A program made the position numbers and the translations under genes. Under the pieces are notes generated by a model. It was not told the DNA's origin and did not search any database. It saw nothing but the letters and a program-made list of their open reading frames with translations. Positions 17,812-20,538 of a stretch of DNA of 64,000 nucleotides are shown here, one piece after another. Within the stretch, counting starts at the first letter, position 1. The number at the start of each line of letters is the position of its first letter. This DNA comes from Flavobacterium aerium (GTDB lineage: Bacteria > Bacteroidota > Bacteroidia > Flavobacteriales > Flavobacteriaceae): contig NZ_JARQWR010000011.1 in the NCBI RefSeq assembly GCF_030766725.1, positions 62,001 to 126,000 of the forward strand, in the 5' to 3' direction.

Positions 17812-18441
17812 ATGATCAAAGTTTGTTTAGCTGATAATCATCCTGTAGTAGAATATGGTGTGAAATCTTATTTTAAAGAAAATTCAGATATTAACATTGT
17901 AAGTTTTGCAAGTAGTTATGATATTCTGGTAGAGATCTTAAAGAAGAGAATTGTAGATGTTCTTGTACTTGATCTTGACTTGGAAGGACTAACTAGTATT
18001 AATCTTGTTAAGTCTCTTCTAAAGGAGCATCCAAACACTAAGATTGCAATTTACACGAATCAATCTGAACAAATTTATGCACCTAATGCATTAAAAGCCG
18101 GAGTTTCTGCATTTATTCATAAAACTGAAAAACTGGATACCCTGTATAATGCGATTGTAAAAGTATCTGAAGGTGAAATTATCTTTAGTGATACTGTGAA
18201 GAAGAATCTAGCACTAATTGGAAAACGTAACAAAAACAACCGTTTATATAGAAAACTTTCTACTCGTGAAATTGAAGTACTTCGCTATTTAAGTGATGGT
18301 AAGAAGAATAAGGAGATTGCAAAAATTTTAGATCTTAACGAAAAAACGGTCAGTACTTATAAATTGCGTTTATTAACGAAATTACATGTCACCAATTTGG
18401 TTGATTTAGTAAACAAGGCTAAAACGCTTGAAATCGTTTAA
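17812..18441 (+). CDS. NarL/FixJ-family response regulator
   Basis: Two-component regulator of 209 residues. The receiver domain (about 1-120) keeps Asp8, the phospho-acceptor Asp54 (VLDLDLEG), Thr82 and Lys104. The C-terminal LuxR-type helix-turn-helix is at about 145-209 (LSTREIEVLRYLSDGKKNKEIAKIL). No sensor kinase is encoded nearby, so it is an orphan. Its last four bases overlap the end of the convergent dnaG gene. Targets are unknown. Confidence 0.92.
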   Translation: MIKVCLADNHPVVEYGVKSYFKENSDINIVSFASSYDILVEILKKRIVDVLVLDLDLEGLTSINLVKSLLKEHPNTKIAIYTNQSEQIYAPNALKAGVSAFIHKTEKLDTLYNAIVKVSEGEIIFSDTVKKNLALIGKRNKNNRLYRKLSTREIEVLRYLSDGKKNKEIAKILDLNEKTVSTYKLRLLTKLHVTNLVDLVNKAKTLEIV

Positions 18442-20417
18442 TGATAACGCGACATTACTCGTCCTAATTTTTTTGAAAAGGAGTTAATCAATTTTTGATA
18501 GTCTTGTGCCATCATCAAAATTTCGGAATTATCCGCTGCTGGATCTGGAGTTATACTACTTTTTAACTCTTCAATGATTCTATCTACTAGATACCATCTT
18601 AATGTAAGTATGGTCTCAGATACGTATTGACCAATTGTTTGGTCTTTTTGTTTTACAATAATCTGCTGTCCTTCCCAGTTATGCAAGGATAGTTTTTCAT
18701 CTTCCATTAGAATATCTGTCACTTCCTGCGCTAAGTCTGGATTGAGCTGCATCATATACTGCTCCATGTTGAAAGTTTCGTTCTGGTGGTAGTAATTTAC
18801 CATATCGTTATAGATGTCTCTAAACAGATTGTTTGCCAGTTCTACTTCATCTTCCTGAAGACTTAAATAGATGCGTTGATATACACGATAGTTTTTAGTT
18901 TCTGTATATTCTATCGGTTCTCCTTCGTCATTCATTTTCATCAGAACATCTTCAAATTCTTCTTCGAATGTTCCATAAAGCAATAAGATCTCAATAATCT
19001 TTCTTTCCAGTTGGTATAGAATATTTATTTTAGGTCTTTGTGGTTGCTGCTCTTCATCTTTTATGACTTCAAAAGCTTTTTGATCTTGCTTTGTTTTTTT
19101 ACCAGAGTCTACAATATCTTTCTGAATCAGCTGGGCTAGTGTATTGAATAATACTTGCTCCGAGATATCCATGATTCGAGCGCATTCTTGCAAGTATATT
19201 TCGCGTTGGATACGGTCTGGTATCTTAGAAATACTGGTCACCATATCTCGAATTAATCCTGCTTTTTTCACTGGATCATTCTTCGCTTCATCCATTAATA
19301 GGGATGCTTTGAATTGTATAAAATCTTTTGAGTTGGCTTCTAAGTAGGCTACTAAAGCATCGTGAGAATTATTTTTAGCAAAACTGTCTGGATCTTCTCC
19401 GTCTGGGAATGTACATACTTTCACATTCATCCCTTCTTCCAGAATTAAATCGATTCCACGAATGGACGCTCTTAATCCGGCTGCATCTCCATCAAATAGC
19501 ACGGTAATATTTTTCGTAAGTCGATTTACCAACCGTATTTGATCGGGTGTCAGTGCTGTACCTGATGAAGCGACCACGTTTTCAATTCCTGCTTGATGAA
19601 ATTGAATCACATCAGTATATCCTTCTACTAAATAACAGTTATCTAATTTTGCTATGGATTGTTTTGCATGGTAAATTCCATACAATACTTTACTCTTATG
19701 GTAAATATCACTTTCTGGGGAATTCAGGTATTTTGCTGCTTTCTTATCATTGGTGAGTATTCTTCCTCCAAATCCTAGAACGCGTCCTGACATACTGTGA
19801 ATAGGAAACATAACACGTCCTTTAAATCGGTCAAATTGCTTGTCCTCTTTAACGATTGTTAGTCCTGTTTTATCTAAATATTCTAGCTTATATCCTTTCC
19901 CTAGTGCGTCTTTTGTAAAAGCACCCCAGGTTTCTGGCGAGTATCCTAGCCCAAATTTATAGATGGTTTCACTACTGAATCCTCGTTCTTTGAAGTACGA
20001 ATATCCAATTGCTTTTCCTTCTTCTGTATTTAGTAAGACATTATTGAAATATTTCTGAGCATATTCGGAAACGAGATACATACTTTCTCGTTCATTCGTT
20101 TGTGCTTTTTCTTCATTGGACTGTTCTGTCTCTTCAATTTCAATATTGTACTTTTTGGCTAAATAACGAATCGCCTCTGGATAGGTGAAATGTTCATGTT
20201 CCATTAAAAAGGCTACTGCGTTACCTCCTTTTCCAGAACTAAAGTCTTTCCAAATTTGTTTTACTGGCGACACCATAAACGACGGAGAGCGTTCGTCCGA
20301 GAATGGACTTAATCCCTTAAAGTTACTTCCAGCGCGTTTTAATTGAACAAAATCGCCAATTACTTCCTCTACGCGGGCCGTTTCAAATACAGTATCTATC
20401 GTGCTTTTGGTAATCAA
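18438..20417 (-). CDS. dnaG: DNA primase
   Basis: Makes RNA primers at replication forks. With the start used here it has 659 residues: an N-terminal zinc-ribbon-like domain, a TOPRIM catalytic core (VEGYTDVIQFH and FDGDAAG) and a C-terminal helicase-binding region. The four zinc ligands are absent: the Cys-His...Cys-Cys positions read Ser37, Ser40, Asp58 and Ser61. I chose TTG at 20417 because it gives MITKSTIDTVFE, close to related primases as I recall them, and because the upstream TTG at 20426 lies in a -7-like sequence (CAAATTTG). The stop shares a TTAA with the convergent response regulator. Confidence 0.93.
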   Translation of the reverse strand: MITKSTIDTVFETARVEEVIGDFVQLKRAGSNFKGLSPFSDERSPSFMVSPVKQIWKDFSSGKGGNAVAFLMEHEHFTYPEAIRYLAKKYNIEIEETEQSNEEKAQTNERESMYLVSEYAQKYFNNVLLNTEEGKAIGYSYFKERGFSSETIYKFGLGYSPETWGAFTKDALGKGYKLEYLDKTGLTIVKEDKQFDRFKGRVMFPIHSMSGRVLGFGGRILTNDKKAAKYLNSPESDIYHKSKVLYGIYHAKQSIAKLDNCYLVEGYTDVIQFHQAGIENVVASSGTALTPDQIRLVNRLTKNITVLFDGDAAGLRASIRGIDLILEEGMNVKVCTFPDGEDPDSFAKNNSHDALVAYLEANSKDFIQFKASLLMDEAKNDPVKKAGLIRDMVTSISKIPDRIQREIYLQECARIMDISEQVLFNTLAQLIQKDIVDSGKKTKQDQKAFEVIKDEEQQPQRPKINILYQLERKIIEILLLYGTFEEEFEDVLMKMNDEGEPIEYTETKNYRVYQRIYLSLQEDEVELANNLFRDIYNDMVNYYHQNETFNMEQYMMQLNPDLAQEVTDILMEDEKLSLHNWEGQQIIVKQKDQTIGQYVSETILTLRWYLVDRIIEELKSSITPDPAADNSEILMMAQDYQKLINSFSKKLGRVMSRYH

Positions 20418-20538
20418 TGTCTTCAAATTTGTAGCTTGTAAAATTACGCAATTCCAAACAAAAAAGACGTGGTCTGAAAAGTAATTTTAAGCCTTTGTCT
20501 TATTCTGATTTTACGAGCTCGTTCTCAATACATTTAAA

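Follow-up and report, generated by a model that had tools for sequence, protein, structure and literature searches.

A DnaG primase of Flavobacterium aerium with the four canonical zinc ligands replaced, and the distribution of this form in Bacteroidota

DNA primases of the CHC2 type, represented by the DnaG proteins of Aquifex aeolicus (2AU3) and G. stearothermophilus (1D0Q), carry four zinc ligands in an N-terminal ribbon, the second knuckle of which reads CFGCG. A review and a research paper (PMC7873864, PMC8531726) have passages that count primase as one of the proteins requiring the zinc released from ribosomes or otherwise saved, and the choice of template in T7 and plant organellar primases is described, in a section of PMC10557236, as being carried by the ribbon. 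Here we describe the dnaG gene found in a 64,000-nucleotide stretch of Flavobacterium aerium (NCBI RefSeq assembly GCF_030766725.1, contig NZ_JARQWR010000011.1, positions 62,001 to 126,000 of the forward strand), which as a whole is called the window below. The gene, at 18438..20417 on the minus strand, encodes a DNA primase of 659 residues that has the domain order, predicted fold, and catalytic residues of CHC2-type DnaG and, likewise to A. aeolicus DnaG, a lysine before the third ligand position (Lys57), but it lacks the four zinc ligands and reads DFSSG at the second knuckle. From sequence comparisons, we consider it likely that this is a working replicative primase with a probably metal-free template-recognition domain built on Ser/Asp knuckles, a form that would have switched several times and with which an economy of zinc would fit.

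The nearest precedents, by analogy, are zinc-free ribosomal protein S4 with its history of transfer, the DUF164 family, and metazoan Twinkle. The zinc-free (C-) forms of S4, L31, L36, and DksA2 are likewise metal-free versions of zinc proteins with a patchy occurrence, and transfer between lineages is described for S4 in part of PMC3087516. As in these C+/C- replacements, a zinc-free DnaG stands in for the zinc form among related genomes (six families contain both); the presence of both forms in one genome was not observed here, the sole DnaG being zinc-free, with one PF01807 gene and no zinc-bearing paralogue found. DUF164/FlgZ of Flavobacteria, in which the two CXXC motifs have become SXXS and DXXS according to a passage in PMC3372290, shows the same CxxCG to DxxSG exchange, but is an unrelated protein with another function, and that passage cites dnaG solely as a neighbouring gene. 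Metazoan Twinkle resembles the window's DnaG in that zinc cysteines were lost from a Toprim-kind primase. According to a section of PMC3610141, human Twinkle is also without primase activity and without other primase motifs, whereas the active site of the window's DnaG is intact. No description of a zinc-less DnaG was found among the matches listed, as excerpts, from the open-licence PMC literature.

Ligand replacement and its distribution

The protein matches the DnaG equivalog TIGR01391 over residues 1-414 (430 bits, cut-off 283.6), and its Pfam domains follow the usual order of Zn_ribbon_DnaG, DNAG_N, Toprim, and DnaB_bind. The surrounding open reading frame spans 18438-20426 (-); the TTG at 20417 was chosen as the start by homology, since it fits the starts of homologues, and a further in-frame TTG lies at 20426. 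The N-terminal zinc-ribbon-type template-recognition domain (residues 1-97; 20127..20417, minus strand) matches PF01807 both in profile (92.8 bits, cut-off 24.9) and in predicted fold, without the three Cys and one His ligands of that family. In an alignment to Aquifex 2au3 and G. stearothermophilus 1d0q, with the codons re-read, the Cys, His, Cys, and Cys ligands correspond to Ser37, Ser40, Asp58, and Ser61, which confirmed the residues named at these positions in a preliminary description of this DNA. The first knuckle thus reads SPFS for CPFH (residues 37-40; 20298..20309, minus strand), and the second reads DFSSG for CFGCG (residues 58-62, with Asp58, Ser60, and Ser61; 20232..20246, minus strand). 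Chance, a sequencing or assembly error, and a frameshift were ruled out, as many relatives carry the same class of replacement: 6/6 rows of the same genus, the window included, and 80/80 named loci, some of them from cultured strains. The peptide patterns used to find these named loci favour the zinc-less class, and the loci indicate breadth, not frequency; the closest catalytic domain among them is that of Flavobacterium beibuense (87%).

Profile searches with PF01807 covered 247 genomes of the phylum, 109 of the order, and 109 of the class in overlapping sets, the phylum being Bacteroidota in the GTDB sense. They yielded 206 DnaG rows of chromosomal type, spread over 81 families (f-numbers), many of which contribute one or two rows each, and because the rows were partly picked by low PF01807 score, the counts are not frequencies. 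Left out of the 206 were the window's own loci (L001 and L032), L033 (no primase), other or mobile primases (L159-L163 and L382-L387), the fragments L007, L054, L069, and L381 (CHCC), the repeat loci L273, L360, and L375, the 80 named loci, and 17 other unused loci among L002-L031, all CHCC. All four ligands are present in 105 rows, Cys37 and Cys61 are both gone in the other 101 (the zinc-less rows), and in none is only one of these two gone. Position 37 is Ser in 101/101 zinc-less rows, position 61 is Ser (72) or Thr (29), and position 58 is Asp (74) or Cys (27), while position 40 is variable, with His retained in 11/101. The second knuckle reads CFGCG in 87/105 zinc-bearing rows; among the zinc-less it reads DFSSG (56), DFSTG (16), CFSTG (13), or CFSSG (12), with four single variants.

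By family, 22 are wholly zinc-less, 53 are wholly zinc-bearing, and 6 are mixed (f3, f8, f52, f68, f84, and f90). Genera with a named zinc-less DnaG include Flavobacterium, Polaribacter, Tenacibaculum, Myroides, Aquimarina, and Moheibacter, among others. The FMO protein, which we take to be a mark of green sulfur bacteria, was present in 11/11 tested genomes of families f15, f17, and f28, and on that basis these families were placed there; 16/16 of their DnaG rows are zinc-less with Cys58 retained. Phage primases can also be zinc-less, as in Cellulophaga Ingeline_1 (S-V-C-S) and Flavobacterium laban6-1 (S-V-D-S); a Porphyromonas phage primase is CHCC, and 80 IMG/VR loci comprise 9 zinc-less and 71 CHCC. 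A trait of Flavobacteriaceae alone, which had been suggested at the outset, is ruled out by the presence of the zinc-less form in 28/81 families of the phylum, green sulfur bacteria included, and by the several switches of state described below. The accompanying statement that DnaG ligands are nearly invariant fails within the phylum, where 101/206 rows of a non-random sample are zinc-less.

History of the zinc-less state

On three trees of the catalytic domain, the least number of state changes was 17 (165 rows), 20 (184 rows), and 19 (89 representatives), the direction, loss or regain, not being fixed by these counts; 9, 7, and 4 changes are forced if only well-supported branches are counted. 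L181 and L092 were left out of the 184-row tree, and L181, L092, L178, L087, L037, and rows of fewer than 400 residues were left out of the 89-representative catalytic tree, the clade tests, and the ribbon tree. A single zinc-less clade was rejected on the catalytic domain (approximately unbiased (AU) test, p-AU 0.00206). Among the mixed families, f8, f3, and f52 have zinc-less members whose catalytic part resembles that of the zinc-bearing sibling most, with identities of 0.67–0.71, 0.65–0.75, and 0.80, respectively, against at most 0.62, at most 0.67, and 0.55 to the best other family. For f68 and f84, the zinc-bearing sibling is less close than another family (0.61–0.62 vs. up to 0.66, and 0.70 vs. 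0.73), so whole-gene transfer is possible there, and in f90 the sibling and another family tie (0.63). Ser37 is encoded by AGY in 69 rows and by TCN in 32, uniformly within each family save f48 and f61; both codon classes are a single step away from TGY, a pattern consistent with more than one origin. Judged by these trees and codons, the zinc-less state has switched several times in Bacteroidota sensu lato, partly by repeated substitution. Mapping of ligand loss on a tree of DnaG across Bacteroidota, which the preliminary description had proposed, gives 17–20 changes and no single clade.

The history could also be read as one ancient origin of the zinc-less gene, followed by whole-gene transfer or the persistence of an old polymorphism, as is argued for zinc and non-zinc ribosomal protein S4 in a part of PMC3087516 that provides the precedent. 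The zinc-less rows do have accompanying substitutions in common at positions 29, 34, 48, and 60 (family-weighted, Ser at position 60 goes from 0.05 in zinc-bearing to 0.96 in zinc-less rows), and they group more by ribbon than by catalytic part; green sulfur bacteria carry the zinc-less form too. The catalytic parts in f68 and f84, which are not nearest to the zinc-bearing sibling, and the tie in f90 favour a single origin as well. The sibling placements in f8, f3, and f52, the two classes of Ser37 codon, and the rejection of one clade by the catalytic part (p 0.002) as well as by the ribbon (p 0.0225) argue in the other direction, and we regard a single origin as unlikely.

Some of the switches probably involved recombination of a short ribbon segment, phages included, as a comparison of the two parts of the gene suggests. 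When columns 37, 40, 58, 60, and 61 are removed, the ribbon tree needs just 7 state changes. Between families, identity over residues 28-75 without the ligand columns is 0.706 for zinc-less pairs, 0.593 for mixed pairs, and 0.574 for zinc pairs, while the corresponding values for the catalytic part are 0.494, 0.473, and 0.466. One dnaG gene (L122, genome G284, family f52) resembles its zinc-bearing sister L053 except at about codons 33-95, which match the zinc-less form of f47; over residues 28-75 without the ligand columns, it is 93% identical to the f47 form and 77% to its f52 siblings. It looks like a recombinant at a ribbon patch of about 60 codons, a lead and not a proof, as its single source is a metagenome genome and the gene has ambiguous bases and is frameshifted; G337, the other genome of the genus in the set, has the zinc form.

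A bolder proposal, which we hold only tentatively and think somewhat doubtful, is that a metal-free segment of about 60 residues with the signature (D/C)-F-S-(S/T)-G is a mobile module of Bacteroidota and their phages. It would replace the zinc form in one step, as one case of information-processing proteins being selectively freed of zinc under a single structural rule, CxxCG to DxxSG, with possible effects on the starts of Okazaki primers. One-step replacement would explain the lack of any row in which only one of Cys37 and Cys61 is gone. The module view is weakened by the ribbon tree itself, which rejects a single zinc-less clade (p 0.0225, as above) and which, at 95 columns, is of low resolution.

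Constraint, predicted fold, and readings of the domain

The RNA-polymerase (Toprim-type) catalytic domain (residues 112-361; 19335..20084, minus strand; PF08275 and Toprim matches) contains E265, D309, and D311, and across the zinc-less rows these residues are present in 101/101, 101/101, and 100/101, respectively. Among six rows of the same genus, the window included, the ratio of nonsynonymous to synonymous polymorphism (pN/pS) was 0.120 for residues 2-95 and 0.135 for the catalytic part, and it rose to 0.255 over residues 361-639. Family-weighted column entropy over the half of the domain that holds the ligand positions (residues 28-75) was 0.78 in zinc-less rows vs. 0.94 in zinc-bearing Bacteroidia (80 rows from 23 families against 76 rows from 37 families), and in the catalytic part it was 1.46 vs. 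1.52. The altered ribbon domain is under purifying selection and is not in decay. An AlphaFold2 model built with 43 sequences had a mean predicted local distance difference test score (pLDDT) of 85.8, and in a structure comparison covering Foldseek's top 1000 chains, the modelled domain aligned to the zinc-binding domain 1d0q_A with Z 15.2 and a root-mean-square deviation of 2.0 over 99 residues (residues 1-99). The zinc-ribbon fold is therefore predicted to be kept without its canonical ligands. Purifying selection, the intact active site, and the preserved predicted fold bear out the earlier suggestion that this is an evolutionary replacement and no lesion.

Three observations weigh against this picture of a conserved, metal-free ribbon. 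Closer kinship among the zinc-less families may account for part of their higher conservation; pLDDT falls below 50 at residues 40-42, exactly at the first knuckle, so the knuckle chemistry given below is only our proposal; and Cys58 in 27/101 together with His40 in 11/101 zinc-less rows would allow a weak or shared metal site. Along the last line, a metal might still be bound through Asp58 or Cys58 and Ser, with His74/His76, or at a shared site. Position 58 is indeed Asp or Cys in 101/101 zinc-less rows, and His74 and His76 occur in 53/101 and 32/101, but besides position 58 no column of the domain exceeds 53/101 Cys or His, and the V, A, G, and K seen at position 40 are unusual ligands. We consider retained metal binding improbable.

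With a metal-free ribbon, the template-recognition domain would keep the predicted zinc-ribbon fold with no zinc at the canonical site, as the loss of ligands suggests. Its knuckles are replaced, from C-P-F-H to S-P-F-x and from C-F-G-C-G to (D/C)-F-S-(S/T)-G. From general knowledge of turns, Ser37 and the Asp-x-x-Ser/Thr-Gly turn probably supply side-chain to backbone hydrogen bonds in place of the zinc-thiolate contacts, and the ribbon, to judge by its conservation, would still read the template and feed the Toprim active site. In Clostridioides difficile DnaG, a Lys adjoining the zinc motif influences the preferred trinucleotide, the A. aeolicus enzyme having Lys there and the G. stearothermophilus enzyme His, according to a passage in PMC5204125. 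Lys57 of the window's DnaG (20247..20249, minus strand) is the counterpart of this residue by way of the 2au3 and 1d0q alignments rather than C. difficile DnaG itself. Since Lys57 is present in 101/101 zinc-less rows, a changed specificity is no necessary consequence of ligand loss, and template recognition by the zinc-less ribbon may be unchanged. The domain could instead be a vestige, with priming that proceeds without sequence-specific template recognition, as in the primase part of human Twinkle, where the four zinc cysteines are gone and which is thought inactive. The loss of zinc cysteines in metazoan Twinkle is a known case, described in a section of PMC3610141, but the same section reports that Twinkle is without other primase motifs too. 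The domain here is no less conserved than that of zinc-bearing relatives, with pN/pS of 0.12, an invariant Lys57, and intact catalytic residues, and we find a vestige very hard to credit.

That the essential job is done by another, zinc-bearing primase, with the window's dnaG as an extra gene, has almost no probability left: some relatives do have a second, probably mobile-element PF01807 protein, but in the window's genome (4.0 Mb, 99.57% complete) we found one PF01807 and one DNAG_N match over cut-off and thus no second primase of DnaG type, zinc-bearing or otherwise, other primase superfamilies not being searched. The preliminary description had named such a second gene as one finding that would overturn it. 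A further DNAG_N match in the genome is weak (15.8 bits) and below cut-off. The small secondary PF01807 proteins L161 (G025) and L387 (G146), probably of mobile elements, have lost their ligands differently (SRDL, and SRDS with W[YF]DHG). Three genomes rated 99% complete (G056, G153, and G376) gave no PF01807 match at E 0.001. The rest of the protein includes a predicted DnaB-binding helical region (residues 380-421; 19155..19280, minus strand; PF10410, 36.1 bits). A putative LuxR-type response regulator, identified by eye at 17812-18441 (+), is convergent with dnaG, the two sharing 4 bases (18438-18441) at the dnaG stop end.

A possible zinc economy and what the replacement means

Zinc economy is perhaps the cause of the zinc-less DnaG. 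It fits because a second, unrelated ribbon, that of DUF164, has changed alike in many of the same genomes. In the window's genome, the DUF164/COG1579 (PF02591) ribbon has S, S, D, and S for its four Cys (L477, G000 contig C54, 266839-266931), and its CxxCG has become DxxSG, like that of DnaG. Among 30 chosen genomes, DUF164 ligands are lost in 10/18 with a zinc-less DnaG vs. 0/12 with a zinc DnaG (Fisher p 0.0016, uncorrected for kinship), mostly through the CxxCG to DxxSG exchange; in this count, G109 (C-DS, with a gap) was scored as a loss, and the residues in G049 and G146 are A, C, D, S. In family f8, DnaG and DUF164 switch together (2 vs. 2 genomes).

The economy is not uniform, and several counts speak against a general one. 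DUF164 retains its Cys in 8/18 genomes with a zinc-less DnaG. PriA keeps its eight Cys in 15/15 genomes with a match, and RecR keeps its four Cys in 13/13 read of 14 matches (G012 left out); a loss of all zinc ribbons in the genome is ruled out by this retention. For L36, 15/15 sequences read of 16 (G020 left out) belong to the zinc-free type, with no more than one Cys, regardless of the state of DnaG. The ribosomal proteins of Bacteroidetes are largely of the zinc-free kind in a table in section 13 of PMC3087516, and the entry for Chlorobi in that source has the zinc forms of L31, L32, and L36, though the DnaG of green sulfur bacteria is zinc-less. Because PriA and RecR keep their Cys and Chlorobi keep zinc forms of L31, L32, and L36, the economy, if it is the cause, would be selective. 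A small genome, G293 (0.6 Mb, f57), is without a match for the PriA ribbon or the RecR zinc finger and has dnaG and DUF164, both zinc-less.

These comparisons suggest that a domain generally regarded as dependent on zinc can function in the absence of the metal. They call for caution with drug designs aimed at the zinc of primase in Bacteroidota, and they bear on the CxxCG to DxxSG exchange as a general route to a metal-free ribbon. Primase is cited as requiring zinc, with a ribbon that reads the start trinucleotide, and the ligand-free set offers a natural test of whether zinc serves the fold or the recognition, as well as a test case for how a metal site vanishes from an essential enzyme.

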